From Gilvimarinus polysaccharolyticus (GTDB lineage Bacteria > Pseudomonadota > Gammaproteobacteria > Pseudomonadales > Cellvibrionaceae), in assembly GCF_001187555.1 (NCBI RefSeq), contig NZ_LFIJ01000001.1, forward strand, positions 62,001 to 126,000: a stretch of DNA of 64,000 bases, given 5' to 3'. This document shows, in pieces, positions 3,531 to 59,528 of the stretch. The notes below the pieces were generated by a model. That model ran no database searches, was not told the origin of the DNA, and was given only the letters and a program-made list of their open reading frames with translations. The translations under genes and the position numbers were made by a program. The first letter of the stretch is position 1, and each line of letters opens with the position of its first letter.

Positions 3531-3534
3531 AAGG

Positions 3535-4539
3535 TTACCTATCAATATAGCCACAGGTGTGTCCTGCAGCTATTGCTTCAATTTGTTCCTGTGACGACAA
3601 ATGGGGGTCGCCGTAAGTGGTATGAGAGAGCGCAAACGCCGCAGTGGCAAAATTAATGATCTTTTGTTGTGGCCAATGATGGATTAGGCCATGTAGGCAA
3701 GCTGCGGCAAATGCATCACCTGTGCCTAGACGATCGAGAATGTTTACTTTGATAGAGTGGCTTTGATATATGTGTTGTTGATCGGCAATGACGGCGCTTA
3801 AGGTGTTTTCATCGGCGCTGTGATGAATGCGACAAGTGGTTGCCGCGAGTACGCCGTAGTTGTCAGATAGGTCACGCGCAGCTTGTATATTAGATTTTTC
3901 AGGGCTTAATCCATCATAGTGTTGATCAAACACATCACCCATGACGCCCGGGTTACCAAAAACTATATTGGCGTAATTTAACAGCTCTACAAATACCTCC
4001 TTTGCTCGCGCTTTGTTCTCCCACAGGCGGCGGCGAAAATTCATGTCAAAACTTACGATGACTCCCATTTGTTGGGCCACTTTTGCGGCGTTGAGGGTTA
4101 TCTCAATACAGTTATCGGACAGCGCCGGTGTGATACCGCTGAGGTGTAAGCACTCAACATCTTGCAGCAGATGTTGCCAGTTAAACTCATCGGGTCGGGC
4201 CTGACTGATCGCCGAGTGATGGCGATCGTAAATAACCCGTGAGGGGCGTATCGAATGACCCAGTTCAATAAAATAAGCCCCGATTCGTTCGCCGCCTTTG
4301 ACAACTAAACTACAGTCAACTCCGAGCCGATGAAGGCTTGAGGCGGCGCGCTCACCGATAGCGTTATTCGGAAGTTTTGATAAAAACTTCACTTGATTGC
4401 CAAGTTTACTTAAACCTATTGCGACATTACCTTCGGCACCTGCAAACTCCATTTTAAGGTTGTCGGTGTCGTGTAGTGTTTGCCCCGGAAGCGTTGGCGT
4501 TAGGCGAAGCATTAACTCTCCAAAACAGGCGATGGTCAT
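3535..4539 (-). CDS. kdgK: 2-keto-3-deoxy-gluconate kinase, PfkB family
   Basis: 334 residues from the ATG at 4539, which overlaps the stop of the upstream MFS gene (ATGA). An in-frame ATG 22 codons earlier would lie within the transporter gene and is rejected. The fold is PfkB/ribokinase: N-terminal ACFGELMLRL, a substrate-binding GAEGNVAIGLSKLG segment, and the C-terminal signature DRLGTGDAFAAAC with the catalytic Asp. It phosphorylates 2-keto-3-deoxy-sugar acids with ATP for cleavage by the following aldolase. Its place after the dehydratase and transporter fits the galactonate / anhydrogalactonate route of agarolytic bacteria. Confidence 0.93.
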   Translation of the reverse strand: MTIACFGELMLRLTPTLPGQTLHDTDNLKMEFAGAEGNVAIGLSKLGNQVKFLSKLPNNAIGERAASSLHRLGVDCSLVVKGGERIGAYFIELGHSIRPSRVIYDRHHSAISQARPDEFNWQHLLQDVECLHLSGITPALSDNCIEITLNAAKVAQQMGVIVSFDMNFRRRLWENKARAKEVFVELLNYANIVFGNPGVMGDVFDQHYDGLSPEKSNIQAARDLSDNYGVLAATTCRIHHSADENTLSAVIADQQHIYQSHSIKVNILDRLGTGDAFAAACLHGLIHHWPQQKIINFATAAFALSHTTYGDPHLSSQEQIEAIAAGHTCGYIDR

Positions 4540-5807: not shown

Positions 5808-5822
5808 TTTTTATTCTCGCTT

Positions 5823-6977
5823 TTACCAGTTGGTGTAGCTGTTGTCGGGTTTGATGAGACGCGGTGGCTCCCAGAATTTAAATGTTTTTCCTTGTAGCGC
5901 TTCTTCGTTGACATCGATACCAAGGCCCGGTGCGCCTGAGACAATAAAGTGGTTATCGATAACTTCTGGACGGTTGATAAAGTAACGATCGTAATCGCTT
6001 AAATCGCCGTCGTAAGGGGCGAGTTCTAACCAGGCTAAGTTGTTAATGGCAGCACAATAGTGGATTGATGCTGCGGTACATAATGGGCTTAGGGGGTTAT
6101 GCGGCATCATATCGATGTAAGCTGTTTCGCATTGTGCGGCAATTTTTAACGCCTCGGTAAAGCCCCCTGCATTGCAAATGTCCACTCGGCCAAAATTGGT
6201 CAGAGCGCTGTGTACATAAGGAGCGAAATCCCACTTGCTGGTAAATTCTTCACCAATAGCAAAAGGAATGTCGACCATAGTGCGCAGATTTTGATAAGCG
6301 GCTGGAGTTTCATCGCGAATTGGCTCTTCTAAAAAATCCAGAGTGCCAGCTGGAAGGCGCGCACAAAACGAAACGGTTTCGGCAACGTTAAGGCGGTGGT
6401 GATAATCGATGCCCAGCACGATGCTGCTACCTAATGCTTCTCGAGCAAGAGTTAACCAGTGGGCACTTTTAGCAATGGAGTCACGCGGGTCAAATATCGT
6501 GCTCTGTTGGGGGTGACCGTGTTCACCTGTAGTGGCACGAATGACATTCCAGCCTTCATCTTTAAGGCGTAACACATCATCGATAAACCCTTCATTAAAA
6601 GCTGCCGTACTGGTGGCAAACAGCGGAATGCGTTCACGCTGTTTGCCCCCCAATAATTGATAAACGGGTACCCCGAGTGCCTTGCCTTTGATGTCATGTA
6701 AGGCCACATCAATGGCGGCGATGGCCGCGGCCAATACCCGCCCGCCTTCAAAATAAGCACCGCGGTACATTTGTTGCCACAGAGCGCTAATGTCGCAAGG
6801 GTCTTGGCCCTTTAAGAACTGCTCAAAATGCGCCACTGCCCCCATGACGGCTTGTTCACGTCCCGATAAGCCGGCCTCACCCCAGCCATAGATGCCCGCA
6901 TCGGTTTCTACTTTGACCAGACAAACGTTACGAAAGCCGACCCAAGCGCTATAACTTTTTATTTTTTTGATTTTCAT
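5823..6977 (-). CDS. Enolase-superfamily sugar-acid dehydratase (galactonate dehydratase/anhydrogalactonate cycloisomerase-like)
   Basis: 384 residues, collinear with E. coli galactonate dehydratase DgoD. Metal-ligand and catalytic positions are visible: D191 and H193 in GIDYHHR, E217 in DFLEEP, E243 in AIGEEF and H293 in MMPHNPLSP; the capping domain carries VETDAGIYGWGEAG. Such enzymes abstract the alpha-proton of a sugar acid and yield a 2-keto-3-deoxy product. The following KDG kinase and aldolase would use that product. In agar degraders the corresponding step is the cycloisomerase acting on 3,6-anhydro-L-galactonate; this protein resembles DgoD more than the mandelate-racemase-type cycloisomerase I recall, so the substrate may be D-galactonate or the anhydro acid. 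It starts 1 bp after the GntR stop. Confidence 0.85.
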   Translation of the reverse strand: MKIKKIKSYSAWVGFRNVCLVKVETDAGIYGWGEAGLSGREQAVMGAVAHFEQFLKGQDPCDISALWQQMYRGAYFEGGRVLAAAIAAIDVALHDIKGKALGVPVYQLLGGKQRERIPLFATSTAAFNEGFIDDVLRLKDEGWNVIRATTGEHGHPQQSTIFDPRDSIAKSAHWLTLAREALGSSIVLGIDYHHRLNVAETVSFCARLPAGTLDFLEEPIRDETPAAYQNLRTMVDIPFAIGEEFTSKWDFAPYVHSALTNFGRVDICNAGGFTEALKIAAQCETAYIDMMPHNPLSPLCTAASIHYCAAINNLAWLELAPYDGDLSDYDRYFINRPEVIDNHFIVSGAPGLGIDVNEEALQGKTFKFWEPPRLIKPDNSYTNW

Positions 6978-6978
6978 A

Positions 6979-7626
6979 TCACTGCCGAATTAAGCGCGAC
7001 CAATATTCGCCGCTGGTTTTAATGTGGTGCGCTAGTTGGCGTTGTAGTTGCTCGCCATCTTCATTTTTTAACGACTCGAGCATTTGTTGGTGCTCATTAA
7101 TGGTGCTTTGTAGTTTGGTTTTGCTGATGGGCAGTTTGGCGTGTAGTGCCTGTAACATGATTTTCTTTTGGCGCCACATGGCCACCGCCATGCGGTTGTA
7201 ATGATGGCGGTACATTTCCCAGTGAAAACTTGTGTCCAATTCACGAAAAAGACCATATTGATCGGATTCTAATGCCTGCATCTGATCAATGGTTTGTTGC
7301 AGCGTGTTTAGGTTTTCGCGGGTGTGGTGCTCGATAAACCAATCCAAAAGATAGGGCTCTAATGTTTGTAAAATCTCAAACACGTTGCGCATGGTCTCAA
7401 ACTCAAAGCGGGCAACTCGAGCACCGCTGTTACGCTGAAATGTGACAAACCCTTCTCCCTCTAACTGCCTGAGAGCTTCGCGTACTGGATTTACGCTGGT
7501 GTCATAACGTTTAGCCAGTGTGGTTGTAACCAGTCGATCGCCACTTACGTAGTTGCCGTGGGCAATATCCTTTAGGAGTAGGCTGTATACGTCTGAGTCC
7601 GGCGACAGCAAGCTGGTTATGCTCAT
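6979..7626 (-). CDS. GntR-family transcriptional regulator (FCD type)
   Basis: 215 residues from the ATG at 7626, with GGAAAC seven bases upstream; an earlier ATG at 7656 lies inside the operator and is rejected. Residues about 5-65 form the winged helix (VYSLLLKDIAHGNY, TSVNPVREALRQLEGEGFVTF) and the rest an all-helical FCD ligand domain with acidic/His metal-type positions (DTSFHWEMYRHHYNR). FCD regulators usually repress sugar-acid operons until bound by the acid. It is the first gene of its own operon and two palindromes at 7646-7679 lie immediately upstream, suggesting autoregulation. The same palindrome elsewhere in the window makes it the best candidate for a locus-wide repressor. Confidence 0.9.
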   Translation of the reverse strand: MSITSLLSPDSDVYSLLLKDIAHGNYVSGDRLVTTTLAKRYDTSVNPVREALRQLEGEGFVTFQRNSGARVARFEFETMRNVFEILQTLEPYLLDWFIEHHTRENLNTLQQTIDQMQALESDQYGLFRELDTSFHWEMYRHHYNRMAVAMWRQKKIMLQALHAKLPISKTKLQSTINEHQQMLESLKNEDGEQLQRQLAHHIKTSGEYWSRLIRQ

Positions 7627-7645
7627 AATAGTTTCCGTGATTAAT

Positions 7646-7679
7646 ATTGCATACAATATACATTGCGATTGTGTGCAAT
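7646..7679. promoter_or_regulatory. Double palindromic operator before the GntR operon
   Basis: ATTGCATACAAT at 7646-7657 and ATTGTGTGCAAT at 7668-7679, start-to-start 22 bp (two helical turns), lie 20 bp upstream of the chosen GntR start. Both match the locus consensus ATTGTATRCAAT. The spacing suggests two regulator dimers on one DNA face. Binding is inferred. Confidence 0.7.
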
Positions 7680-8594: not shown

Positions 8595-9793
8595 TGCGCT
8601 GCTCTGGTTGCTGCGAAGACTTGTTCAATGTCGCTGAGGCCTATCCCCAATACTTGTTGTGCAATCTTATCCAGCTCGGCTCGCGTCCCTTGAATATGCA
8701 CGGTGGTTTGTGTGTGCTGTAATGATTCCCCAGGTTGTAATTCACGGGTATGGGATGACGACTCTAATTCATAAAATGGTCCGAATGGCCCGAAACCATC
8801 TACGATTCCATCGTTAAAAACATTTATGACGTCACCCGCGTACGGCGCTGGATTAGGTGTCCAAACAGAGTTGACGTAAACGCCAGCTGCGGGTGTAAAG
8901 CTAAAATGAATTAATGTGAGTAGCTTGCGTTTGGCATCCCAGGCGCCCATCACAGGTTTGGTGTGGTCCGGTGGGATACCGATTTTATTCATATAATTGC
9001 CGTCGGCGTTATAAAGGACATGCTGATCGATAATTTTACTGTGACTGTTTTTGTTGGGGGAAAAGTATTCGACCAATTCGTTTAGTTGTCCGCGTAACGG
9101 TATAACGACGGTGTTGTTGTCGCTTGGTTCAAGGGCGGTTAAGTGCCACAAGCTGAGTAGGCCCGTCTCTTTATTCCAAGCGCTGTTAGCGATGTTGGTA
9201 AGCTGGGTGCTTGCGCTGAAGCCAATCAGTTTTATGTCTGCCGGTAAGCGTATATCAAATAGTTGGTTGATATCGTCATTGTCGAGCAACTTGATACTGC
9301 GGGTAACGTCAATTTCAAATAGAGTGTTGTTGTAGTTGGTTAAAGTGAACGCCCGCTTGAAAACCGCCTGTGTACTGTTGTGAGAAACAAGTGCGTAAGG
9401 TTCGATGGTCATAGCCGAGGGGTAGCTAATGTTATCGTTGGTGCGCTCAATACCGGGCTTAAACAGTAGCGAATAATCTCCTGTTTCCGGCCCAAAGCTT
9501 AAGCGATCTGCCCCGCCCATAGGGCGATTGGGCGTTAAGTCGCCGTCTTTAAGATAGTCCCGATTAACCCAGCCAATGCTCGCTCCCGCTTTGCCGGACA
9601 GGCTGGTTACCATAACCCTACCTTGCAGTTCGCCCAGTACGGCTAGTTGTTGGTTGCCGCGGCTTAATATCAGGGGCGAAAAATGCTGCTCCATTAGTGA
9701 TATATCGCTGGCAAAGGTATTGGCGTTAGCCGCGAGTGAGTTCAAGCAAAGTACTCCTGTTAGCAGCGCGAGGCGGGCTATCTTATTAATCAC
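8591..9793 (-). CDS. Exported protein of unknown function (DUF6786-like beta-sandwich)
   Basis: 400 residues beginning with GTG at 9791-9793, overlapping the IclR stop by 4 bp (GTGA). A signal peptide runs to about residue 25 (LAANANTFA), so it is probably periplasmic. The body is beta-rich with WxxG-like turns and motifs such as GGADRLSFGPETGDYSLLFKPG, PALMGAWD-like PVMGAWDAKR and YELESSSHTRELQPGESL, reminiscent of aldose-1-epimerase-like or DUF6786 sandwiches, which end with similar ELESSS / G-E-S-L-x-H-x-Q-T segments. I do not recognise a function. Presence in an operon with IclR and SDR, in a galactan locus, suggests binding or epimerising a sugar. Fold suggestion is from memory of the family pattern only. 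Confidence 0.6.
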   Translation of the reverse strand: MINKIARLALLTGVLCLNSLAANANTFASDISLMEQHFSPLILSRGNQQLAVLGELQGRVMVTSLSGKAGASIGWVNRDYLKDGDLTPNRPMGGADRLSFGPETGDYSLLFKPGIERTNDNISYPSAMTIEPYALVSHNSTQAVFKRAFTLTNYNNTLFEIDVTRSIKLLDNDDINQLFDIRLPADIKLIGFSASTQLTNIANSAWNKETGLLSLWHLTALEPSDNNTVVIPLRGQLNELVEYFSPNKNSHSKIIDQHVLYNADGNYMNKIGIPPDHTKPVMGAWDAKRKLLTLIHFSFTPAAGVYVNSVWTPNPAPYAGDVINVFNDGIVDGFGPFGPFYELESSSHTRELQPGESLQHTQTTVHIQGTRAELDKIAQQVLGIGLSDIEQVFAATRAAQ

Positions 9794-10572
9794 TTAATAC
9801 CCATGCGTTGGTTGATGTGTACGGCAGTCTTGGTAATGGCATTAAGTATGGTGCTTTGGTCATGACTTTGCCCGAGACTGGTGGTAAGCGAAGAAACTGC
9901 CAGGGCGGCCATCAAGCCTGAGGCGGCGGTGCCTACAAATGCGGCACAGTCGGTAACGCCGATGGTGATTTCGCTGGCCGCGCAGTGATGCCCTTGCTTT
10001 TTAATGGTTGTCAGTTGGGCTTTTACCGTTTGTTGCTCTTTTGCGCTTAAGCGACTAAAGCATTCGTCACCTAATAACAGGCGCTCTTGCTCTTCAGGGG
10101 CAAAATTGGCTAGGAGTACACGTCCCGAGGTGGTCGTAAGCAGCGGAAATAACGTACCTTCCGCGATCGAAAGAGATACTGGATCCGGGCTTTTAACTTG
10201 GCTTACGACCATCAATTTACCGTTGTAGGGTACGCTGAGGTGGCAAGCTTGGCCGATTGTTTCTGCCAATTCTTGCAGTGGCAGACGCGCCGCATTGGTC
10301 AATTGCTCAATCGGGGAGTGGGTGTGAGACAGCGCATATAACTTTAGCGATAGGCGGTATTTGCCCGAGCTCTCGTCGCGGTTTAAGTAGCCGCGTGCTT
10401 CTAGGTTTACCAATATTCGATAGATTTCATTGGGGCTGCGCGCTAGTCCTGCCGCTATTTCGGCTTGAGAGCGGGCGGCTGATTCGGCGGACAGGTATTC
10501 AATAATATCCAGGCCTTTATCCAGCGCAGGGGCCGAGTATTTTTTGGTTTTATCCATAAGTGTCTGGTTCAT
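9790..10572 (-). CDS. IclR-family transcriptional regulator
   Basis: 260 residues from the ATG at 10572, preceded by GGAAAAACC; a longer frame opening at 10644 would extend into the divergent promoter and has no better ribosome site. Residues about 10-70 form the winged helix (KGLDIIEYLSAE, RSQAEIAAGLARSPNEIYRILVNLEARGYL) and the C-terminal two thirds the IclR effector domain (GQACHLSVPYNG, TTSGRVLLANFAPEE). It is the first gene of the IclR/exported protein/SDR operon and divergent from the CoA-transferase cassette, so it probably controls both. IclR members commonly respond to aromatic or small carboxylic acids or sugar acids. Confidence 0.9.
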   Translation of the reverse strand: MNQTLMDKTKKYSAPALDKGLDIIEYLSAESAARSQAEIAAGLARSPNEIYRILVNLEARGYLNRDESSGKYRLSLKLYALSHTHSPIEQLTNAARLPLQELAETIGQACHLSVPYNGKLMVVSQVKSPDPVSLSIAEGTLFPLLTTTSGRVLLANFAPEEQERLLLGDECFSRLSAKEQQTVKAQLTTIKKQGHHCAASEITIGVTDCAAFVGTAASGLMAALAVSSLTTSLGQSHDQSTILNAITKTAVHINQRMGIK

Positions 10573-10680
10573 CTTTGGTTTTTCCGCCGTATGGCGGTTG
10601 CCCTCTATTATGCCTGTTATATCGAAAATCGATAGTGCTGCCATTGCGCCGCTTTTAGGCTACAGTAGCGCGTAAAGTGT

Positions 10681-10706
10681 ATTGTAGAAAGAATATTGTA
10701 TGCAAT
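10681..10706. promoter_or_regulatory. Palindromic operator in the IclR/CoA-cassette divergent promoter
   Basis: ATTGTATGCAAT at 10695-10706, with a partial ATTGTA at 10681, lies 62 bp upstream of the solute-binding-like gene and about 110 bp upstream of the IclR start. It matches the word found at the GntR operon and TonB receptors, which would place this cassette under the same control as agar catabolism. The 195-bp divergent region holds no gene. Confidence 0.65.
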
Positions 10707-10767
10707 AAGATAATAATTTATAGTGGAACTTATAATTTATATATAAATATCCCGCCATGGTGTTCTT

Positions 10768-11928
10768 ATGAGCTCAGCAATAACGGAATTAAAAGGTATT
10801 ACTTGGAATCACACGCGAGGTTTTGTGCCTATGACGGCGACGGCGCAACGATTTGAGGAGCTGAATCCAGACGTTCGTATCAGTTGGGATAAGCGTTCAC
10901 TGCAAGCTTTTGCTGATGAACCTATCGATCAGTTGGCGAAGCGTTATGATTTATTGGTCATTGACCACCCTTGGTCGGGCTTTGCCGCGCGCACGGGCGT
11001 TACAGTGGCATTGGATGATTGGTTGCCGGCGGAGTTTCTTGCGGATCAAAAAGCTAATTCTGTCGGTCGTTCCTATGAAAGTTATAGCTTCGATGGGCGC
11101 CAGTGGGCGCTGGCTATCGACGCTGCGACCCCTGTGGCTGCGGCGCGCATGGATCTCTTAGCGAATATGGGGGCAGCTGTGCCCGATACGTGGAGTGATC
11201 TGTTGGCGCTGGCCAAGCGCGGCAAGGTGGTGGTGCCCTCGATTCCGCAAGATACGTTGATGAACTTCTATATGCTGTGCTCGACCATGGGCGAAGACCC
11301 CTGTGAGCGTGCCAATGAGGTAGTTAGTCAGGATGTGGGTATAAAGGCGCTGAAGATGTTGCGTGAGCTGTCGAAATTATTGCCGAAAGGGTGTTTTGAT
11401 TGGAACCCCATTCAAGTATACGAAGCAATGACCGCAACAGATGATTTTGCCTATTGTCCCTTTGCCTATGGCTATTCGAATTATGCAAAGCCTAGATATG
11501 GCAAAGGTCTGCTAAAGTTTAGCGATATGGTGTCGCTGCCAGACACAGGTCGTTGTCGCACTACACTAGGTGGCACCGGATTGGCTATTTCAGCAAGTTC
11601 ACCGCATAAAGAAATAGCCGCACGTTATGCGCAGTTTGTTGCGAACGCGACTATGCAGTCGGGACAATTTGTTGAGTTTGGAGGTCAGCCGGGGCATCGT
11701 GAGGCTTGGTTGGCCGATTACCCTAATAGCACCAGTGACAATTATTTTAAAGATACTTTGCCAGCACTGGATCGTGCTTTTTTACGACCACGATATCACG
11801 GGCATATGTTCTTTCAGGATAATTCCGGCGCCCCAATTCGTGAGTATTTGATGAATGGCGGTGATGAAAAACAGTTGCTGGATAAACTAAATAAACTCTA
11901 CGTTCAGTCAAAGAGTGAAAATCCATGA
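10768..11928 (+). CDS. Solute-binding-protein-like protein without signal peptide
   Basis: 386 residues with the two-lobed periplasmic-binding-protein pattern of ABC sugar transporters ([72 protein letters not shown]). The N-terminus ([18 protein letters not shown]) is hydrophilic: there is no signal peptide or lipobox, and no upstream ATG would add one. No ABC permease or ATPase genes occur in the window. It is the first gene of a tightly coupled cassette, overlapping the first CoA-transferase by 4 bp. I infer a cytosolic ligand-binding or chaperone-like role for the cassette's substrate; an export route cannot be excluded. Related signal-less proteins beside CoA-transferases exist in other bacteria, to my recollection, without a known function. 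Confidence 0.75.
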
Positions 11929-13067
11929 GTCTTCCCTTAGCCGGTGTTACGGTTCTCGAGTTTAGCCAGTATTTGGCGGGCCCCTATGCGGGTCTCAGGC
12001 TGGCAGATTTGGGCGCCCGTGTCATAAAAATCGAACGTCCCGGCAAGGGTGATGCCTGCCGTCAGTTGGCCACTAAAAACTTGTGGGCCGATGGCGACAG
12101 CGTATTGTTTCATACCATTAACCGCAATAAAGAAAGCTTTTCTGCCGACCTAAAAAACCCGGCCGATGTTGTTACAGTTAAAAAGCTTATCGCTCAAGCT
12201 GATATTGTTACCCATAATTTTCGCCCTGGAATTATGCAGCGTTTGGGGCTCGACTATGAGTCGGTTAAGACGCTTAATCCAAGCTTAATTTACGGCGAGG
12301 TGAGCGGCTATGGCGATACTGGTCCATGGAAGGACAAGCCAGGTCAGGATTTACTGGCGCAGTCGGTATCGGGTTTGACCTGGGTGACGGGCAATGGCGA
12401 TCAGCCGCCCACACCTTTTGGTATTGCGGTGGCCGATATGTTGTGTGGCACCCATTTAGCCCAGGGTTTACTGGCGGCAATGGTGCGTAAAAAGCGTTTT
12501 GGTTTGGGCGGCAAGGTCAACGTCAGTTTACTAGAGTCTATTTTGGATTTTCAGTTTGAAGGTTTGACCGCCTATTTAAATTCGGATAACGAGCTGCCCC
12601 AGCGCAGTCAGGTGGCTAACGCACACCCTTATGTCGGTGCGCCTTATGGTATTTACACCACAGCTAATGGCCATATTGCGATTTCCATGGGCAATTTAAA
12701 AACGCTCTGCGACGCTATTGGCTTGCAAGGATTGGAAGATTTCTATGGCGTCGATGCGCAGTACTTTGAGCGAGATAAAATTAAAGCGGCGCTACAAAAG
12801 CACTTAAAAAATCGTACCAGCGGCGAATGGTTGCAAATGTTAGAGCAGGGCAGCTATTGGTGTTCAGAAGTTTTAGATTACGAAGCATTAACCCAGCATG
12901 AAGCTTATCAGGTGTTGCGGATGGAGCAGAATCTGCAACGTGGTGATGCCAGCTTAACAACCACTCGTTGTCCGATTCGTTACAACGGCGCGCGACTTTA
13001 CAGCAGTAAAGCCGCACCGCGTGTGGGCGCCGATAATGAAAAAATTGCACAGGAGTTTTCTCTGTGA
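11925..13067 (+). CDS. CaiB/BaiF-family CoA-transferase (class III), copy 1
   Basis: 380 residues. Class III CoA-transferases move CoA between carboxylic acids, as in formyl-CoA/oxalate and carnitine metabolism. The N-terminal motif [25 protein letters not shown] binds Co[16 protein letters not shown] and [24 protein letters not shown] are family signatures, and the catalytic Asp is D171 in IAVADML. Length is normal. The ATG overlaps the upstream stop (ATGA) and the next gene starts on its own stop (GTGA), so all three are translated together. It is about half identical by eye to copy 2, suggesting duplication or a heterodimer. Substrate unknown. Confidence 0.92.
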
Positions 13068-14200
13068 TTAAGCCTTTGCAAGATATTACGGTACTCGATT
13101 TTACTCAGTTTTTATCTGGGCCTTCGGCCAGTTTGCGCTTAAGCGATTTAGGCGCTCGGGTGATTAAGGTCGAGCACAAAGAAAAGGGCGATTTATCTCG
13201 CAGTATTTATGCGTCGCATTTAAATATTGCTGGTCAGTCGGGCTTTTATCAGGGGATTAACCGGGGCAAAGAATGTTTGGCGTTAAATTTAAAAGATGCT
13301 GATGATTTAGCCCTAGTAAAACAAATATTACCTCACGTAGATATTGTTCTGCATAACTTTCGTCCGGATGTTATGCAGCGCTTGGGATTGAGTCCGCAAG
13401 AGCTGAAAAGAATTAATCCCAAGGTTATTTACGGCGAGATTACAGGCTATGGTCACGAAGGCCCCTGGCGTGACCGTCCTGGCCAAGATCTACTACTTCA
13501 AGCGCTTTCCGGTTTGGCCGGTTTAAGTGGCGATGAGGCGTCAGGCCCAGTACCTATGGGTTTAGCTATTGTTGATAACCTTGCTGGCGCGCAGTTGGTG
13601 CAAGGGGTGTTGGCCGCTTTATACGCAGGTGAGGGCGCATTGGTGCAGGTGAGTATGTTGGAGGCTGCTCTGGATTTTCAGTTTGAGCCACTCACCCTTT
13701 ACTACCATGATGGAGAAGCGGTTAATCGCGGCACTGATAACGCCGCTCATGCCTTAGTGGGGGCGCCTTACGGTTTGTATAAAACCAGCGATGGTCACCT
13801 CGCACTGGCTATGGGCTCGATTACCTTTTTGGGCGAACTGCTGGCGTGTGCTCCATTGTTGGCGTTTGCCGATCCCGCTCGCTGGTTTGCCGAGCGCGAT
13901 GCCATCAAAGCTATATTGGCGACACATCTTGAGCAACAAAGCACTGCCCATTGGTTAAGTATTCTTGAGCCTGCAGATATTTGGTGTGCTGAGGTTTTAA
14001 ATTGGCAGCAACTGGTCGCCCATGAGGGATTTCAGCTCTTGCATATGGTGCAAGAGGTCAGCTCGGCGGGAGGATCTTATTTGACTACTCGCTGCCCGAT
14101 TCGTATCGATGATCAGTTGCTGACTCAGCCGCAAGGCGCGCCGTCTTTAGGCGAGCATAACCATTTATTACGTGCTGAATTTTTAGCGCCCAATTCGTAA
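13064..14200 (+). CDS. CaiB/BaiF-family CoA-transferase (class III), copy 2
   Basis: 378 residues, GTG start at 13064 overlapping the stop of copy 1. It is collinear with copy 1: [61 protein letters not shown] and catalytic D171 in AIVDNLAG, so both copies keep the active-site Asp. Two adjacent, coupled copies suggest subunits of one heteromeric enzyme or two enzymes that load and unload CoA on successive acids of a pathway. The neighbouring enoyl-CoA hydratase and aldehyde dehydrogenase support a route aldehyde to acid to acyl-CoA to hydration or its reverse. Confidence 0.92.
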
Positions 14201-14211
14201 CGGAAATCGCC

Positions 14212-14982
14212 ATGATTACACTGGAAAAAAACGGACGAGTTCTTGAACTTACGTTTAATCGGCCACCGGCTAATGCTTATACGCTGGAGTTTATGCAGGA
14301 CTTAGCTCGCGCACTAGATACCATTGATGCCGATACCGAGGCCAGTGTAGTGCTGTTAACCAGCGCCAGTGATAAATTCTTTTGCGCCGGCGCGGATATA
14401 AAAGAATTTTCCCGAAACAGTACTCAACACAATCAGCAGTTGGTGGCTCAGGCTCGTGCCAATACCGCGCAAATGGAGGCCAGCGACAAGCTCTTTATTG
14501 CCTGTATAAATGGTCATGTGCTAGGCGGTGGCCTAGAGCTGGCGATGGCTTGTGATCTACGCTTTGCCGCACGCGGCACATATTTATGGGGGTTGCCAGA
14601 AATAAAGCTGGGTTTGATTCCGGGTAATGGTGGTACACAGCGGCTGGCACGTTTGGTCGGAATTAGCAAAGCATTAGAGTTATTGGCAACTGGGGATAAT
14701 TTTGTCGCCCAAGACGCATTTGATTTTGGTTTAGTTAATCGCCTGCTCCATCCAGAGGAGTTACTTGAGAGTGCCCGCGCCTATGCTCTGCAGGTAGCTC
14801 AAGGGCCGGCACTGGCGTTAGCGGCCACCAAGCACGCGGTGCGTGATGGTGCTCAATTAAGCTTGGCCGATGGACTGGCGCTTGAGAAAAAGCATTGCGA
14901 TGCCTTGTATGACACCGAGGATGCCGCTGAAGGCTTTAATGCTTTTGTCGAAAAACGTGTCGCAAAATTTAACGGACGCTGA
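14212..14982 (+). CDS. Enoyl-CoA hydratase/isomerase (crotonase) family
   Basis: 256 residues, ATG 11 bp after the second CoA-transferase. Crotonase motifs are present: FCAGADIKEF for the CoA oxyanion hole, NGHVLGGGLELAMACDLRFA with the first catalytic Glu and PEIKLGLIPGNGGTQRLARLVG with the second, so a true hydratase/dehydratase activity is likely rather than a dehalogenase or decarboxylase. It would hydrate or dehydrate the CoA ester formed by the adjacent CoA-transferases in the cytosol. No fatty-acid oxidation partners (thiolase, acyl-CoA dehydrogenase) are nearby, so a sugar-acid or small branched acid is as plausible as a fatty acid. Confidence 0.9.
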   Translation: MITLEKNGRVLELTFNRPPANAYTLEFMQDLARALDTIDADTEASVVLLTSASDKFFCAGADIKEFSRNSTQHNQQLVAQARANTAQMEASDKLFIACINGHVLGGGLELAMACDLRFAARGTYLWGLPEIKLGLIPGNGGTQRLARLVGISKALELLATGDNFVAQDAFDFGLVNRLLHPEELLESARAYALQVAQGPALALAATKHAVRDGAQLSLADGLALEKKHCDALYDTEDAAEGFNAFVEKRVAKFNGR

Positions 14983-15021
14983 GGTTTACTCCCGCGACCA
15001 ACCGATCTGAGGACAATAATA

Positions 15022-16473
15022 ATGGCCACATCACTGACGCATTACCCCTGTTATATCCACGGACAATGGGTGGATGCCAGCAATTGCGCAACCTTTGAGG
15101 TGCTTAACCCCGCCAATGAAAAACCTTGGGCGACTGTGCCAGATTGTACCGATGCCGATGCAGAAAAAGCTTTGCAAAGCGCTCGTCAAGCTCAGCCTGC
15201 ATGGCAAGCGCTGCCAGCTATTCAGAGGGCTCAGTATTTATTTAAATTAGTGGATGCGCTAAAAGAAAAGCGTGATCATTTTGCCAAACTATTAGTACAG
15301 GAGCAGGGTAAAACGCTCCCTGAGGCCTATGGCGAATTTGACGATACACTTAATTACATTACCTACGGTGCCGAAGCCGCGCGCCGTATCGAAGGCAATA
15401 TTTTTCCATCGGATAACCCTAATGAGCAATTGTGGATTCAGAAAGTTCCCTATGGTGTCACATTAGGCTTATGTGCCTATAACTTTCCTCTGGCACTGAT
15501 CGGTCGAAAAATTGGACCGGCGTTGGTGACCGGTAACACCATGGTGTTAAAAGCTCACGAAGCAACACCGGTTACCGCCTCGGAGTTTTGCAAAGTGGTT
15601 GATGAGGTAGGGTTTCCACCAGGGGTTATTAATTTAGTCAGCGGTACTGGTATCAATGTCAGCTCTTATTTGGTTTCTAACCCGATTACTCGATTGGTGT
15701 CGTTAACGGGCAGCACCCGAGCTGGCCAGGCAATCTATAAATCATCATCTGAAAATGTATCCGGCTTGGTGCTTGAGTTGGGGGGTAAAGCAACTTTTAT
15801 CGTCCTAGAGGATGCCGACTTAGATCGGGCTGTAGAGGCCGCCGTGATCTCCCGTTATGCCAACTGTGGTCAAGTATGTATTTGTGCCGAGTTGGTGTTG
15901 GTGCACGAAAGTATTGCCGAGGAGTTTACTCGCCGAGTGGTGGAGAAAGTTAAACAGATTACTTACGGCGATCCGTCTACCGATGTCAATATGGGGCCCA
16001 GTGTCACCGGTTTGAGTATTGACCGGGTTGAAGCAATGGTGAATGAAAGTGTCGCTCAAGGGGCAAAAATTGAAGTTGGTGGTAAGCGCCCAAGCGGTAA
16101 AGAGTTTGAGAAAGGCTATTGGTTTGAGCCAACCGTGCTAAGCAATGTGACGGCCGATATGCCAGTGGCGGAAGAGGAAGTTTTTGGACCGGTACTGCCC
16201 ATTATTGCCGTTAAAGATTATCAAGAGGCGCTGCAGATCAGTAATACACGAGAAGAAGGTTTGTCCGCTTATATTTTTAGCAAAGATATTCCCACCGTGA
16301 TGCACGCCATTAATCATATGGAGGTGGGAACTGTATTTGTTAACCGTCAAATAGTGGGTTACATACAAGGTTATCACTCGGGTCACAAGCGTAGCGGAAC
16401 CGGTGGTGAAGATGGTGTGTACGGTATTGAAAACTACCTGCAAAAACGCGCCGTATATTTTAATTACGATTAA
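15022..16473 (+). CDS. Aldehyde dehydrogenase, AldA/lactaldehyde dehydrogenase-like
   Basis: 483 residues, close in length and pattern to E. coli AldA. The catalytic Cys is C286 in NCGQVCICAE and the general-base Glu is E252 in LELGGKA; the cofactor segment is AYNFPLALIGRKIGPALVTGNT. It oxidises an aldehyde to an acid with NAD(P). In agar degraders an enzyme of this family converts 3,6-anhydro-L-galactose to the anhydro-galactonate, so it is a candidate for that step, although it sits in the CoA-transferase cassette and not in the KDG operon. AGGACAATAAT precedes the start as ribosome site. Lactaldehyde (from the GH29 product fucose) is another possible substrate. Confidence 0.9.
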   Translation: MATSLTHYPCYIHGQWVDASNCATFEVLNPANEKPWATVPDCTDADAEKALQSARQAQPAWQALPAIQRAQYLFKLVDALKEKRDHFAKLLVQEQGKTLPEAYGEFDDTLNYITYGAEAARRIEGNIFPSDNPNEQLWIQKVPYGVTLGLCAYNFPLALIGRKIGPALVTGNTMVLKAHEATPVTASEFCKVVDEVGFPPGVINLVSGTGINVSSYLVSNPITRLVSLTGSTRAGQAIYKSSSENVSGLVLELGGKATFIVLEDADLDRAVEAAVISRYANCGQVCICAELVLVHESIAEEFTRRVVEKVKQITYGDPSTDVNMGPSVTGLSIDRVEAMVNESVAQGAKIEVGGKRPSGKEFEKGYWFEPTVLSNVTADMPVAEEEVFGPVLPIIAVKDYQEALQISNTREEGLSAYIFSKDIPTVMHAINHMEVGTVFVNRQIVGYIQGYHSGHKRSGTGGEDGVYGIENYLQKRAVYFNYD

Positions 16474-16485
16474 TCAGAGGTAACT

Positions 16486-18852
16486 ATGTCACGTATTAAT
16501 ATAGATTTAAGCGGTTACCGCTGGCAAATGGAGCGGATGCGACCGGGGCAAGGTGAGAAAGAAGGTTTACATTTATTGCCCGCCGAGTATCAGGGAACCC
16601 ACTTTAGTTGGAATTTTGCTAATGTGCCGGGCGATGTTTATACCGATTTGCATCGAGCTAATGAGATCGCGGATCCGTACTTTGGTCGTAATATGCATCG
16701 CGCTAAGTGGGCGGCAGAGTACGAGTGGTGGTACAGCCACCGCTTTGCAGTACCCAGTGAAATGCACGGAAAAAAAATACGCTTGATTTTTGATGGTGTC
16801 GATTACAGTTGTAGTGTTTGGCTAAATGGTACTTACCTTGGTCGGCATGAAGGCATGTTCTCGGCGTTTGAGTTTGATATTTCCGATGTGGTGAGCTTTG
16901 CCGATTGGCGAGACGGTTCAAACATGTTGATGGTTAAACTTGATCCGCCGCCTAAAAACTATCGTAACTGTGGTGGAAAAAAAGTAAATTTTTCGGGTGA
17001 TTATTTCTCGGGTTTAGTACCTTTTGGTATTTGGCGTCCGGTGCGTATTGAAGCTACCGAGCAAGTGCGCATCGATAGCGTACGCACCGATGTAACTGTC
17101 GCTAGTGATACTCAGGCAGAAGTGGCCTTGACGGTTGATCTTGTCAATCATACTGATGTTCCACAAGAGGTGGAGTTGACCGGTGTGTTGGCTGGTAAAA
17201 ACTGCGATACAACAACTCAGGAGTTTACTCAGCGGGTAACGGCTGCGCCAGGTAAAAGTCAGTTGAGTACCAGCGTTAAAGTCGCCGATGCTAAGCTTTG
17301 GTGGCCTTGGGATATGGGCGAACAAAATCTGTATCAGTTAGATTTGTCGTTAACTCAAGATGATAAAACCCTAGATCAGGCCTCCGAGGTTATTGGCCTG
17401 CGTGAGGTCACTATGGACTTCAATCCAGGTTACACGAGGGATGATAACGAGTTTCCTTGGACATTTTTTATTAATGGTAAGCGACACTTTTTACGCTCGG
17501 CTTGCTGGGGTGGGCAACCATCGTTTTTGTACGGTCGCAACACGCTTAAAAAGTACGAAGACCGTGTTGCCATGGTGCGCGAAGCTAACATCAACAATCT
17601 GCGAATTTTTGGCTGGCATCCGCCCGAAATTCCTGACTTTTATCGCTTGTGCGATGAGCTTGGCATCACTGTGTGGACCAACTTTACTTTGGCGACACAA
17701 GCCTATCCGAGTGATCAGGAGTTTGTGGATGGAGTGTTGCATGAATGTGTCGAGACGGTTAAACAGCGTCGCAATCATCCGTCGCAAATATTTTGGATGG
17801 GTGGTGAGGAGGTGTTTTTCTCCGGGGCTCATGAAGAAAGCGGCAATAAACAGCTTATGGAGGTGATAGGTGATGTAGTAGCTGACTACACTAATATCCC
17901 CTATGGTTTAGCCTCGCCATTAAGCTCAGAGTCAGCTCAAAATATGGGATTTAAGCCTCATGAGAGTATGCATGCTAATGAGCACTATTATCAGGGCGGC
18001 AAAGAGTTTATGGAGGAGTATTATCCATCGCTTGATTGCGCCATTATCCCAGAGCTAACGGCTGCGTCGGCGCCTAATATTGACAGCTTGAAGAAATTTA
18101 TTCCTGCGGATGAACTTTGGCCTATGGGGCCAAGCTGGGCTTATCATTGGGCCGATATCGATATTCTTAAAAATCTTAATTTTGAGGTTTTTAACGATTA
18201 CAAAATGGGGTCGTTAGAGGAGTTTGTTGAGGCTACGCAAATAGCCCAGGGTACGGTTATTCAGTTTGCTCTAGAAACTTATCGACGTCGTAAGCCCAAA
18301 ATGAGTGGTGTGGCCCTATGCCACTTTATGACGCATGTTCCCGATATTAAATGGGGTGTGGTCGATTATTATGGCGAGAAAAAACAGTCTTTCGAGTGGT
18401 TAAAGCGGACTTATCAACCATTGTTACCGAGTCTGGAGTTTACTAAGCGTCGCTGGAATTCAGGCTCCGAATTTAGCGCTGGAGTCTGGGTGGTTAATGA
18501 TTATCAAAAAGACTTTAAAGAGGTGGACCTGTCTTGGCGAGTTGTTTACCAGAGTAAAGACACAGAGGCTGCGGGCTCTAAGACGCTTGACATTGACTGT
18601 GACAGTTCGGCCCATTATTTTGATATTAATTGGCAGCTACCAGCTAATGCTGAGGGCGACTTTGAAGTGGTATTGTTAATTGCCAGCAAGCAAGGTGAGG
18701 TGCTTGCAGAAAATCGCTATACCCTGTTGGTTGGCGATCAACAAGCCGCTAAAGAACAAAGCCTTAAGTATCTAGACGAAGCGTCGGCTCGGTTGGAAAA
18801 GTGTGGCCATAGTGTTTATCGCTACTGGCCTGAAATGTGGGAAATTGAGTGA
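16486..18852 (+). CDS. Cytoplasmic GH2-family beta-glycosidase (beta-mannosidase-like)
   Basis: 788 residues with no signal peptide. Order: sugar-binding jelly roll (about 15-190, with FDGVDYSCSVWLNGTYLG), Ig-like domain (about 195-305), TIM barrel (about 325-660) and C-terminal sandwich. The acid/base Glu falls in FWMGGEE (E442 aligned to the usual GNNE) and the nucleophile is E523 in IPELTAASAPN, 81 residues on. The arrangement resembles beta-mannosidases more than LacZ. The GGEE variant is uncommon to my eye. It starts 12 bp after the aldehyde dehydrogenase and would release the monosaccharide or aldehyde that the cassette uses from an imported disaccharide. Linkage specificity is not predictable. 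Confidence 0.88.
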   Translation: MSRINIDLSGYRWQMERMRPGQGEKEGLHLLPAEYQGTHFSWNFANVPGDVYTDLHRANEIADPYFGRNMHRAKWAAEYEWWYSHRFAVPSEMHGKKIRLIFDGVDYSCSVWLNGTYLGRHEGMFSAFEFDISDVVSFADWRDGSNMLMVKLDPPPKNYRNCGGKKVNFSGDYFSGLVPFGIWRPVRIEATEQVRIDSVRTDVTVASDTQAEVALTVDLVNHTDVPQEVELTGVLAGKNCDTTTQEFTQRVTAAPGKSQLSTSVKVADAKLWWPWDMGEQNLYQLDLSLTQDDKTLDQASEVIGLREVTMDFNPGYTRDDNEFPWTFFINGKRHFLRSACWGGQPSFLYGRNTLKKYEDRVAMVREANINNLRIFGWHPPEIPDFYRLCDELGITVWTNFTLATQAYPSDQEFVDGVLHECVETVKQRRNHPSQIFWMGGEEVFFSGAHEESGNKQLMEVIGDVVADYTNIPYGLASPLSSESAQNMGFKPHESMHANEHYYQGGKEFMEEYYPSLDCAIIPELTAASAPNIDSLKKFIPADELWPMGPSWAYHWADIDILKNLNFEVFNDYKMGSLEEFVEATQIAQGTVIQFALETYRRRKPKMSGVALCHFMTHVPDIKWGVVDYYGEKKQSFEWLKRTYQPLLPSLEFTKRRWNSGSEFSAGVWVVNDYQKDFKEVDLSWRVVYQSKDTEAAGSKTLDIDCDSSAHYFDINWQLPANAEGDFEVVLLIASKQGEVLAENRYTLLVGDQQAAKEQSLKYLDEASARLEKCGHSVYRYWPEMWEIE

Positions 18853-18886: not shown

Positions 18887-18917
18887 AAGGTTAAAATTAG
18901 GGCAATAAGGTATGACG

Positions 18918-19286
18918 ATGTCGTTTCATTTTTTTATGGCACAAACTGCTTCGTGCAGTCACTTGACTCGTGGTTGCTCCCCCGATCTTGCTGCGATTGA
19001 TGTTCCAGGTTGGCAGGTGCAGCTGGTAGAAGATGCGGGAGTCAGTTTGCTGGTACTAACTGCCGATACTAATGCTGAGTATTTTCCGCCACATGCGTCG
19101 CCAGATAATTGGCTGGCCTTAGTGGTTCAGGGAGAAGCGCGCTTGTTTAGCGGAGATGAAACTGAGATTGCCGATGGGGTAGATTGTAGCCCTGGTGATT
19201 TTATTAGTTTTGGAGCTAATACTTACCATAGTTGGGAGCTCTTAGAGGGCCCTTTAAAAATTGTCCTTTCTAAAGTGGCAGGTTAA
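18918..19286 (+). CDS. Small single-domain cupin protein
   Basis: 122 residues from the ATG at 18918, seven bases after AAGG; an ATG at 18912 is only one base from that site and less likely. The cupin barrel is seen in FPPHASPDNWLALVVQGEARLFSG followed by DCSPGDFISFGANTYHSWEL, giving a His pair typical of metal-binding small cupins. Such proteins bind sugars or small acids, or act as isomerases or mutarotases, but function cannot be assigned. It is the last gene of the CoA-transferase/GH2 cassette on the plus strand, separated by a hairpin. Downstream 19287-19397 contains no gene. Confidence 0.75.
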   Translation: MSFHFFMAQTASCSHLTRGCSPDLAAIDVPGWQVQLVEDAGVSLLVLTADTNAEYFPPHASPDNWLALVVQGEARLFSGDETEIADGVDCSPGDFISFGANTYHSWELLEGPLKIVLSKVAG

Positions 19287-19626: not shown

Positions 19627-20424
19627 CTAGACACTGGCTGACTCCAAAAAATACGTCTCTTCAAACTTAACAGGCGATACGCCGCCTGTATGAGTGTGGC
19701 GTTTTATTGGATTGTAAAGCATCTCTATAAAATTAAATATCTCAGTTTTCGCTAACCGCATTATCATGGCAGTTGCCGCGCCGGCTCATCGAAGGCATGA
19801 GGTTGTGCTCTTTCATAAAGGCCAAGTAATCCGCGCTGGTATACTGGCTTCCTTGGTTGCTGTGGACAAGTACTTCGCCTTTTGGCCGGCGCTGCCAGAT
19901 CGCCATGAGTAAAGCATTGATCACTAGGTGGCGGTCAATATGTTTATCCATCGCCCAACCTACTATGCGGCGCGAGAACAAATCTAAAACCGTGGCCACA
20001 TATAAAAATCCTTCGCAAGTTCGCACATAAGTGATGTTGCTGACTCAAGCCTGATTTGGATGCTTAGGATTGAACTGACGATCAGGCACGTTAGCGGCTG
20101 TCTTTTCTGGCTTACCACCTTTGATGTAACGGCACTTGTAGCCTATTTGCGCTTTTAAGCGGTTTTCCCGCATGATTCGAGCAACCCGGTGAACACTACA
20201 GCCTTCACCGGCCTCGCGCAGGTCGCGGTGAATCCATGGGCTACCATATCGTTGACCATATACGATTCTTTAATTAGCCTTAACAGCCGCTGATCCTCAG
20301 CCGCTCTATCCGATATGGGTTTCTGTAACCAGGCATAAAACCCACTGCGGTGCAGCTTGAGCACGCGGCACATGGCTTTAATTGAAAACTCATTCTGGTT
20401 ATCACGAATGAAGGCGTACTTTAC
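19627..20424 (-). pseudogene. IS3 OrfB transposase remnant (frameshift, stop, deletion)
   Basis: The rve-integrase part of an IS3 transposase is recognisable in pieces: [27 protein letters not shown], then after a frameshift near 20255 [14 protein letters not shown], and VATVLDLFSRRIVGWA, HSNQGSQYTSADY, MSRRGNCHDNAVSE. An in-frame TGA at 20045-20047 replaces the expected Trp of NQAW. After NAVSEN a stop follows directly, then IFNFIEMLYNP and SPVKFEETYF appear, showing loss of some 20-25 codons including the region of the last catalytic Glu neighbourhood. The enzyme is therefore inactive. Its stop at 19627-19629 lies inside the left inverted repeat, as usual. Confidence 0.88.
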
Positions 20425-20699
20425 TCGGACTGGCTTGCAAAGTACTTTGCGGCCTTTTTTAGAATGTCGCGTTCCTCCGTGACACGCATCAACTCAGCTT
20501 TAAGACGAGCGACCTCAGTCTGGTCGTCCGATGATTTGATCTGCTGGGGGCTGCCATGCATGGAGGCCTTCCAGTGGTATAAGGTTTTGGTGCAAATACC
20601 GAGTCGCTCCGCGAGCTCGGCAACAGAATAACCTCGATCGACTAGCTGCTTAACAGCCTTTTCTTTAAATTGCTGTGTGTATCGTTTTCCCTTGCTCAT
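20421..20699 (-). CDS. IS3-family OrfA (transposase helix-turn-helix subunit)
   Basis: 92 residues, apparently intact. The N-terminal helix-turn-helix ([20 protein letters not shown], then [16 protein letters not shown]) is followed by a coiled-coil leucine zipper ([26 protein letters not shown]), the standard IS3 OrfA arrangement. In living elements a -1 frameshift near its end fuses it to OrfB, and the OrfB frame indeed opens in the -1 frame around 20424. Because OrfB is broken, OrfA alone could at most bind the ends. Confidence 0.92.
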
Positions 20700-34226: not shown

Positions 34227-34230
34227 TTTG

Positions 34231-58124: not shown

Positions 58125-58141
58125 CTAACAGGGGGTGCACC

Positions 58142-58799: not shown

Positions 58800-58828
58800 A
58801 TCGGCAAGCACAATAATAAGGGTCAACT

Positions 58829-59527: not shown

Positions 59528-59528
59528 T

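Follow-up and report, generated by a model that had tools for sequence, protein, structure and literature searches.

The CaiB/CaiD system of carnitine metabolism couples a CoA-transferase to a crotonase and recycles CoA between substrate and product. Class III CoA-transferases can also be heterodimeric, as in benzylsuccinate CoA-transferase and SmtAB. For the rhizobial-type oxidative L-fucose pathway, which comprises L-fuconate dehydratase, a lactonase, an SDR and an FAA hydrolase, we know of no textbook role for CoA; genes for a CoA-transferase, a cytosolic solute-binding protein (SBP), MaoC and a Gfo/Idh/MocA enzyme are found in or beside its operons. The canonical pathway for 3,6-anhydro-L-galactose (AHG), as outlined in two reports (PMC11219438, PMC9706016), proceeds through AHG dehydrogenase, anhydro-galactonate cycloisomerase and the KDGal branch.

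The locus described here, which adjoins agar genes of a marine bacterium, resembles each of these systems in part. In the window, by which we mean the whole stretch of 64,000 nucleotides analyzed, ORF calls place a cassette of six ORFs at 10768-18852, all on the plus strand, whose Pfam content in order is SBP_bac_1, CoA_transf_3 twice, ECH_1, Aldedh and Glyco_hydro_2. Like CaiB/CaiD, it pairs a class III CoA-transferase with a crotonase, for a proposed activation of a hydroxy acid for water elimination, but it has two CoA-transferases, an SBP-like protein, an aldehyde dehydrogenase (ALDH), a GH2 and a sugar context, and it scores far below the carnitine models. Its ALDH belongs to the same broad family and occurs in the same genomes as that of the canonical AHG pathway, and its operator is shared with agar genes of the window; yet the canonical pathway involves no CoA, the cassette ALDH forms a separate clade, and genes of canonical type lie elsewhere in the genome. 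The L-fucose operons differ from it in having MaoC instead of a crotonase and a single CoA-transferase next to the SBP. As in benzylsuccinate CoA-transferase and SmtAB, the two CoA-transferases (CoAT1, CoAT2) are paralogous and in tandem, with natural fusions in relatives of the cassette; unlike there, Asp171 is conserved in both subunits. A search of open-access PubMed Central text, names of aldonic-acid CoA esters included, found no description of such CoA-dependent handling of sugar acids.

Gene content of the cassette

The original prediction had described a tightly overlapping plus-strand operon near agar genes, with a GH2, an AldA-like dehydrogenase, two class III CoA-transferases and an enoyl-CoA hydratase. 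ORFs and Pfam matches bear out the five families and their common strand, but the first gene, an SBP homologue, had been missed and, since the gaps after the third ORF are 11, 39 and 12 bp, overlap (4 bp at each junction) is a property of the first three genes only. Thiolase and acyl-CoA dehydrogenase, said to be missing nearby, did not turn up in a Pfam scan of 34 window ORFs, a set that leaves out the ORFs at 27602-28171, 28182-29720, 34183-34785, 38063-38587, 38666-39991, 45374-45922 and 58209-58799, among others. A strongly hydrophobic N-terminal segment is absent from the SBP homologue, CoAT1, the crotonase, the ALDH and the GH2, the five products assessed, as judged by hydropathy, which is a proxy and not a signal-peptide predictor.

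The SBP homologue (10768-11928, plus strand) is a core member of the cassette and matches SBP_bac_1 with 51 bits (cut-off 26). We looked for the marks of an ABC importer and found neither a signal peptide or lipobox, the N-terminus not being hydrophobic by the same proxy, nor, within the cassette, a gene for a permease or an ATPase; at some other loci, ABC importers lie near cassette-type genes. Residues T12, W13, H15, R17, D66, H67, P68, D118, R127 and R340 are conserved in at least 93% of 40 aligned rows, at identities down to 32%; the alignment used every sixth of the SBPs from 80 related loci and 26 distant ones, less L122, which was dropped for an internal stop. The SBP homologue is the steadiest partner of the CoA-transferases: in 78 of the 80 loci (the best 80 of 220), its gene is followed within 1.5 kb by the start of a CoA-transferase gene; in Microvirga, the SBP is present with no CoA-transferase in view. 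Within the module, it may serve as a subunit that binds the substrate or takes part in catalysis.

CoAT1 (11925-13067) and CoAT2 (13064-14200), both on the plus strand, match CoA_transf_3 over their full length with 333 and 301 bits (cut-off 23.3), which places them in class III (CaiB/BaiF). Asp171, presumably equivalent to the catalytic Asp169 of formyl-CoA transferase, is conserved in at least 97% of 71 CoAT1 and 68 CoAT2 rows, and that of CoAT2 aligns with an Asp of YfdE and others; on these grounds both enzymes are intact, as had been claimed. Natural CoAT1-CoAT2 fusions occur in 10 of the best 80 of 220 loci, and in all ten the N-terminal half is nearest to CoAT1 and the C-terminal half to CoAT2. 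The NCBIfam equivalog for carnitine CoA-transferase gave 78 and 55.5 bits (cut-off 413), and the formyl-CoA/oxalate CoA-transferase models 205 and 154 bits for CoAT1 (cut-offs 522 and 504) and 167 and 137 bits for CoAT2, all below the cut-offs, so that we reject carnitine or oxalate metabolism.

The crotonase-family hydratase (14212-14982, plus strand) matches ECH_1 with 204 bits and has Glu109 and Glu130, which we take to be the two catalytic positions of crotonases, conserved in at least 97% of 37 rows, in agreement with the predicted enoyl-CoA hydratase. Against the crotonobetainyl-CoA hydratase equivalog it scored 153 bits (cut-off 500), and it passed no cut-off among the 25 NCBIfam families shown of 72.

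The AldA-type ALDH (15022-16473, plus strand) exceeds the cut-off of NF007497, which we take to represent AldA, lactaldehyde dehydrogenase, by a narrow margin (503.8 against 500 bits). It is related to AHG dehydrogenases at 45% identity. In a tree, 33 cassette ALDHs group together in a separate clade (support 0.88), which lies beside, and not within, the canonical-type clade of PDB 6j75, presumably an AHG dehydrogenase, 3k2w and the cycloisomerase-linked ALDHs (0.992) and is set apart from it by fixed differences. We reject a main role as the AHG dehydrogenase of this genome because a closer relative of these structures (69% to 3k2w, 60% to 6j75) is encoded next to the cycloisomerase.

The last gene (16486-18852, plus strand) encodes a glycosidase without signal segment, in which Glyco_hydro_2 and its _N, _N2 and _C domains are all above cut-off and which is closest in sequence to β-mannosidases of known structure. 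GH2 enzymes usually have an Asn before the acid/base Glu; this Asn is missing here, Asn-Glu being replaced by Gly-Gly-Glu-Glu, and GGEE or GSEE is found in 26 of 26 rows.

Operators and neighboring genes

That the cassette stands under the same operator as agar catabolism is supported by ATTGTATRCAAT, exact copies of which lie at 520, 7646, 10695, 43396, 48346 and 54375 of the window. With up to one mismatch there are 13 matches, compared to 0.82 expected, and this number was reached in none of 100 shuffles (palindromes counted on both strands). The exact site before the cassette, ATTGTATGCAAT (10695-10706), is common to agar genes and lies in the intergenic region between the SBP gene and that of a divergent IclR-family regulator. 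With start codons taken as called, a ATTGTATGCAAT-type palindrome is present at the same place in L027, L028, Hirschia (L031) and G. agarilyticus (L029) and was not found in the other 15 of the 19 loci compared. The copy at 7646 overlaps the start codon as called for the minus-strand genes at 2874-7656, whose actual start probably lies further inside; by Pfam, these genes encode a KDPG aldolase, a PfkB kinase, an MFS protein, an enolase-superfamily enzyme and a GntR/FCD regulator, which may be the protein that binds the ATTGTATGCAAT operator.

The IclR-family regulator (9790-10644, minus strand) matches IclR_C and HTH_IclR, and none of its eight NCBIfam matches reaches the cut-off; its cluster is represented in 43 of the best 80 of 220 related loci. 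A candidate operator for it is a ATTTATATATAAA-type palindrome at 10735-10748, the only window site with at most one mismatch, yet 9 of 100 shuffles give as many matches. Similar palindromes occur in L027, L028, L036, L046 and L029.

Distribution and connection to AHG catabolism

The cassette is not peculiar to this genus, an idea we reject since SBP relatives are encoded at 220 loci in named genomes and 145 plasmid records match. The 80 related loci are the best of these 220, and the sample thus leans towards close relatives; of 20 matches outside Gilvimarinus, 19 were read in context, L166 among them, which is the Vibrio locus L035. SBP-CoAT1-CoAT2-ECH-ALDH is a recurrent unit, found in Gammaproteobacteria, Hirschia and Bacteroidota and tied to AHG catabolism. 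We call this ALDH/crotonase form variant A; variant B has MaoC with a Gfo/Idh/MocA enzyme.

In a set of 97 genomes, the SBP homologue and the cassette are encoded in seven, the source genome included, and all seven have a GH50-type agarase, which occurs in ten overall. Occurrence mainly in genomes without galactan enzymes had been named as evidence against the prediction; for variant A, the reverse was found. The AHG-acid cycloisomerase is present in all 33 variant-A genomes tested (L028, L029, L032, L043, L044 and L045 left out), compared to one close match among 8 of the other form. A protein that we take to be of GH117 type is present in 32 of 39 variant-A genomes, 22 at ≥53% identity and 10 only at 33-41%, compared to one of 11 (41%) of the other form. 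Canonical-type AHG dehydrogenase is found in 37 of the 39, and a 38th (G523) has partial copies. The variant-A set behind the last two counts lacks L076 and includes L059, added on a blast match, and L040, added on suspicion, whose ALDH (67%) was then found in the same stretch; neither of these two is listed as variant A among the 80 loci. The 11 and 8 genomes of the other form are drawn from 39 B-only loci. In the Zobellia family (397 genomes, at most four candidates scored per genome), all seven genomes with a cassette ALDH fall within the 29 with an ALDH of AHG-dehydrogenase type.

In the source genome, an AHG operon of the canonical kind lies about 40 kb away, with cycloisomerase, Zn-ADH, SDR and the ALDH 69% identical to 3k2w, and the cassette is therefore accessory. 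Completion or replacement of the agar pathway by the cassette is not supported, given this arrangement and the three relatives that have agarase and cycloisomerase and lack the cassette (G012, G038, G039). Since canonical-type dehydrogenase and cycloisomerase accompany the cassette, no known agar step is missing, and the cycloisomerase found in all 33 variant-A genomes tested disfavors the cassette as its replacement.

The core of SBP, CoA-transferase and hydratase extends far beyond galactan, and the module is met in several combinations of interchangeable parts: a crotonase and an ALDH; MaoC and a Gfo/Idh/MocA enzyme, in sister cassettes that adjoin rhamnosidases, fucosidases and L-fucose operons; and a crotonase, an SDR and an aldose epimerase. 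For one Persicobacter operon (L131), the PLSDB annotation, which is incomplete, lists no dehydratase besides MaoC. An AHG locus of an alphaproteobacterium (G439) has the SBP, one CoA-transferase, a crotonase and a cassette-like ALDH (50%), all as distant copies. Beside the cassettes of L033, L072 and L085, no sugar genes are recognizable, and the rhizobial-type L-fucose operons with CoA-transferase, SBP and MaoC also hold L-fuconate dehydratase; both observations count against the pathway proposed below, as do the three relatives without a cassette, the canonical-type AHG genes that accompany it and the Microvirga SBP with no CoA-transferase in view.

Proposed pathway and alternatives

From the genes, their conservation and active-site residues, the shared operator and the genomic link to AHG catabolism, all observed directly, we infer, at a probability of about 0.5, a cytosolic CoA-dependent branch for a galactan sugar that proceeds by oxidation, activation and β-elimination and would be co-regulated, and thus induced, with agar catabolism. 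The closeness of CoA-transferase and SBP genes, the natural CoAT1-CoAT2 fusions, the recurrence of the module in several forms, the Persicobacter operon and the G439 locus speak for it as well. The original prediction had proposed the same order, which the genes and the shared operator support as the likeliest logic. A sugar or sugar fragment would be freed from red-algal galactan, possibly by the GH2, and its aldehyde oxidized to the acid by the ALDH. A putative CoAT1/CoAT2 heterodimer would move CoA onto this acid, and the crotonase-family enzyme would eliminate the C3 oxygen from the CoA ester. The resulting product of 2-keto-3-deoxy type would then be processed by the KDG-type kinase and the KDPG aldolase of the neighboring genes, while the transferase would recycle CoA to the next acid, as CaiB/CaiD does with carnitine. 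By this analogy, CoA activation and β-elimination of L-sugar acids appears to be the best reading, with an acid of the L-galactose type as the probable substrate, be it L-galactonate, anhydro-L-galactonate or a substituted form. The usual substrates of crotonases are 3S, whereas L-galacto acids are 3R; the stereochemistry of the hydratase thus favors neither AHG acid nor L-galactonate where that enzyme is a crotonase.

If this is true, sugar acids can be dehydrated after activation as CoA esters, whereas textbooks assign their dehydration to CoA-independent dehydratases, and roughly one in four of the Zobellia-family genomes sampled that have an AHG-dehydrogenase-type ALDH (7/29) would have an added branch for red-seaweed sugars. 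The cassette may thus hint at an as yet undescribed branch in the metabolism of seaweed sugars; it would suggest a function for genes annotated merely as CoA transferase or extracellular solute-binding protein, and would make the cytosolic solute-binding-protein family directly testable. More tentatively, and at less than even odds, the module could serve a general breakdown of L-sugars via sugar-acid CoA thioesters, with oxidation at C1, CoA transfer by a heterodimeric class III enzyme, β-elimination by crotonase (AHG/galactan) or MaoC (rhamnose/fucose), and a formerly periplasmic SBP that is now a cytosolic enzyme or substrate-presenting subunit.

The relatedness of the cassette ALDH to AHG dehydrogenases would also suit a parallel AHG route, in which the ALDH oxidizes AHG, the CoA-transferases form anhydro-galactonyl-CoA and the anhydro ring is opened through β-elimination by the crotonase, not by the cycloisomerase. 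Low identity does not exclude AHG activity, because a proven AHG dehydrogenase of Streptomyces shares only 40% identity with the Vibrio enzyme (PMC9706016), and in Demequina (G499, 46%) and G439 (44%) no closer relative of the canonical enzyme than the cassette-type ALDH was found. We nevertheless consider this route unlikely, given the cycloisomerase in every variant-A genome tested, the near-constant canonical dehydrogenase and the separate ALDH clade with its fixed differences. The marginal NF007497 match would suit another possibility, in which the cassette salvages a small aldehyde, L-glyceraldehyde, from L-2-keto-3-deoxygalactonate, with the ALDH yielding L-glycerate, which would pass through glyceryl-CoA and, by the crotonase, pyruvyl-CoA to pyruvate. 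An SDR/FAA-hydrolase pair by the AHG genes of Hirschia and G439 could yield L-glycerate, and PMC11219438 calls the entry of L-KDGal into E. coli metabolism unresolved; this hypothetical route leaves the variant-B cassettes and the GH2 unexplained, and is quite improbable.

That the cassette degrades a non-sugar acid, such as carnitine, oxalate, lactate or an acyl group carried by the polysaccharide, and merely travels with agar genes, is likewise improbable, if anything slightly more so. Family III CoA-transferases accept a wide range of small acids, which favors this explanation, as do the spread of the core beyond galactan and the loci without recognizable sugar genes; yet the matching NCBIfam models (oxalate, carnitine, mesaconate and glutarate transferases) score far under their cut-offs, and most readable neighborhoods are sugar loci.

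Behind the cassette, at 18912-19286 on the plus strand, lies a gene for a small cupin-like protein, relatives of which occur in 7 of the best 80 of 220 related loci. The window copy has no Pfam match; its relative in L041 matches Cupin_2.

Genes, neighbours and candidate operators of the cassette

The plus-strand operon at 10768–18852 holds six genes, which encode a solute-binding-protein homologue (SBP), two class III CoA-transferases (CoAT1 and CoAT2), a crotonase (ECH), an AldA-type aldehyde dehydrogenase (ALDH) and a GH2 protein. The original prediction had named the last five correctly and left out the SBP gene. An IclR gene is divergent from the operon. Its surroundings further include a PfkB kinase, a KDPG aldolase, an enolase-superfamily enzyme, proteins with an Agarase_CBM domain, which we take to be GH50-type agarases, and a GH43-type propeller protein (GH43 only in Pfam), presumably a GH117.

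At the acid/base site, where GH2 proteins usually have Asn-Glu, the GH2 protein (16486–18852) and its 25 relatives carry GGEE or GSEE (26 of 26 rows), a replacement suggesting that the substrate of this subfamily is probably unusual. The copies of some Bacteroidota have signal-like N-termini.

The palindrome ATTGTATRCAAT has six exact copies in the window and, with up to one mismatch, 13 matches against 0.82 expected. The exact sites lie at 10695 (cassette), 7646 (GntR/kinase/aldolase operon), 520, 43396, 48346 and 54375, which bears out the operator predicted to be common to the cassette and the agar genes. Of 19 other loci tested, three from Gilvimarinus and one from Hirschia likewise have such a site upstream of SBP; in the remaining 15 none was found. 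A second palindrome, ATTTATATATAAA, may be an IclR site; it is weak as a motif, with an equal number of matches in 9 of 100 shuffles.

Several further features of the region were recorded. The copy of ATTGTATRCAAT at 48346 adjoins the gene of a tryptophan-halogenase family protein (46796–48328), and an ORF of similar appearance occurs beyond the window, near TonB receptors (locus L110, 12869–14416). The minus-strand sulfatase at 45374–46750 (Pfam Sulfatase on 45807–46481) looks frame-shifted or mis-assembled, since its parts are spread over different reading frames. Two separate minus-strand ORFs between the cupin and GH16 genes (19742–20699) resemble an IS3-type transposase, and a plus-strand ORF at 34183–34785 resembles part of a YeiH-type transporter. 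On the plus strand at 54666–61895, a 3-keto-disaccharide-hydrolase family protein is flanked by a pair of DUF7133/HEAT proteins, one of which carries cytochrome c.

Distribution and variants

Among 97 related genomes, including that of G. polysaccharolyticus itself, SBP occurs in seven, each time with both CoA-transferases, and GH50-type agarase in ten, which include all seven (hypergeometric 9e-9, kinship ignored). At genus level, SBP and agarase are both present in four of eight genomes and both absent from the other four. Three genomes (G012, G038 and G039) have agarase and the anhydrogalactose-acid cycloisomerase without the cassette.

A scan of named genomes yielded 220 loci encoding SBP relatives, of which we read the best 80. 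In these 80, a CoA-transferase starts at most 1.5 kb behind SBP in 78 and a CoAT1–CoAT2 pair or fusion follows it in 77; the order SBP-CoAT1-CoAT2-ECH-ALDH recurs in 21. The fusions, ten single proteins from nine Hymenobacter loci and one Hymenobacteraceae bin, all have an N-terminal half nearest to CoAT1 and a C-terminal half nearest to CoAT2. By content, 38 of the 80 loci belong to variant A (ECH or ALDH) and 45 to variant B (a second SBP, SBP2, or a Gfo/Idh/MocA enzyme), with six in both and three in neither. Variant B also adds MaoC and an MFS transporter, either RhaT or another. GH78 or GH106 rhamnosidases accompany 20 of 39 B-only loci, in contrast to none of the 38 variant-A loci. Beside three cassettes (loci L033, L072 and L085), a search for sugar genes found none that was recognisable.

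The wider family includes 145 matching plasmid records. Martelella, Ensifer, Nitratireductor and Roseibium have a cytosolic SBP and one CoA-transferase, accompanied by MaoC and Gfo/Idh/MocA, within or next to L-fucose operons that include an L-fuconate dehydratase. Sinorhizobium medicae and Streptomyces combine the SBP/CoA-transferase set with aldose epimerase, SDR and crotonase; on one Sinorhizobium meliloti pSymB, some 10 kb separate SBP and CoA-transferase from a pair of IclR and amidohydrolase genes, and no annotated hydratase adjoins them. In whole-genome contexts, a CoA-transferase lies within the same 20 kb as SBP in 19 of 19 cases (one being the Vibrio of locus L035), and a crotonase or MaoC, not always adjacent, in 16. 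Microvirga, where two mannonate dehydratases accompany SBP and a CoA-transferase is not in view, counts against a strict tie between the two. At three loci (L162, L163, L164), a cytosolic SBP accompanies UxuA-like dehydratases, with CoA-transferase and crotonase some genes off.

Relationship to anhydrogalactose catabolism

About 40 kb before the cassette, the same genome encodes a sugar transporter, an enolase-superfamily enzyme, a Zn-ADH, an SDR and an ALDH, followed by a GH50-type agarase. We take the enolase-superfamily enzyme and this ALDH for the canonical cycloisomerase and dehydrogenase of 3,6-anhydro-L-galactose (AHG). The latter is 69% identical to PDB 3k2w and 60% to 6j75, presumably an AHG dehydrogenase; the cassette ALDH has 45% identity to both. 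Near this operon, ferredoxin-like and P450-like ORFs (locus L109, 330–1820, outside the window) may represent a demethylase for porphyran 6-O-methyl-galactose.

In a tree rooted on E. coli AldA, the 33 cassette ALDHs form a single clade (support 0.88) and the AHG-dehydrogenase type a separate one (0.992), with consistent differences at 20 positions. The cassette ALDH may still act on AHG, because a proven AHG dehydrogenase can share as little as 40% identity with another (PMC9706016). In Demequina and an alphaproteobacterium (G439), the closest relative found for the canonical AHG dehydrogenase is the cassette-type ALDH.

A second ALDH, of AHG-dehydrogenase type, occurs in 37 of 39 variant-A genomes, a 38th (G523) having partial copies, and in several Bacteroidota it adjoins the cycloisomerase. 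The latter was present in all 33 variant-A genomes tested, and a GH117-type protein in 32 of 39 (22 by matches of at least 53%, ten only by 33–41%); the variant-A cassette is thus not found mainly in genomes without galactan enzymes, which would have spoken against the original prediction. B-only genomes have the AHG-dehydrogenase type in one of 11, the same genome having a GH117-type match (41%), and a close cycloisomerase in one of eight (any match at 1e-50 in three). Among 397 genomes sampled within the Zobellia barbeyronii family, the seven with a cassette-type ALDH (58–61%) all fall within the 29 with an AHG-dehydrogenase type (at least 486 bits; 5e-9, kinship ignored). Because of these counts and the cassette-free AHG genomes, we conclude that the cassette accompanies AHG catabolism, yet AHG catabolism does not require the cassette.

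A possible CoA-dependent route

In the readable variants three functions recur: an oxidoreductase that might turn a sugar into an acid, a CoA-transferase and a hydratase for acyl-CoA. Most simply, this suggests CoA activation followed by β-elimination: the oxidoreductase would convert the sugar to its acid, the CoA-transferase would activate this as a CoA ester, and loss of the C3 oxygen would give a 2-keto-3-deoxy product. Candidates for the variant-A substrate are AHG acid, L-galactonate, a form bearing a methyl or other substituent, and L-glycerate. By the usual stereochemical rules, 3R L-sugar acids suit MaoC better than crotonase. The Persicobacter operon (L131) has no annotated dehydratase besides MaoC; an alcohol dehydrogenase and SDR pair follows. 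Relatives of the variant-B Zn-ADH/SDR pair occur in eight of 45 variant-B loci and look, by eye, similar to the pair in the AHG operon; the variant-B pair would suit conversion of L-galactonate via L-KDGal to KDG.

We found no description of this module in open-access PubMed Central text. PMC11219438 treats the entry of L-KDGal into central metabolism of E. coli as unsettled; PMC11378808 describes an L-fucose transporter and does not contain the word CoA-transferase.

The SBP protein lacks a hydrophobic signal segment, and its residues His15, Arg17, Asp66, His67, Asp118, Arg127 and Arg340 are kept across phyla down to 32% identity; judging from its sequence, we infer that it is more enzyme- or subunit-like than a transport protein.
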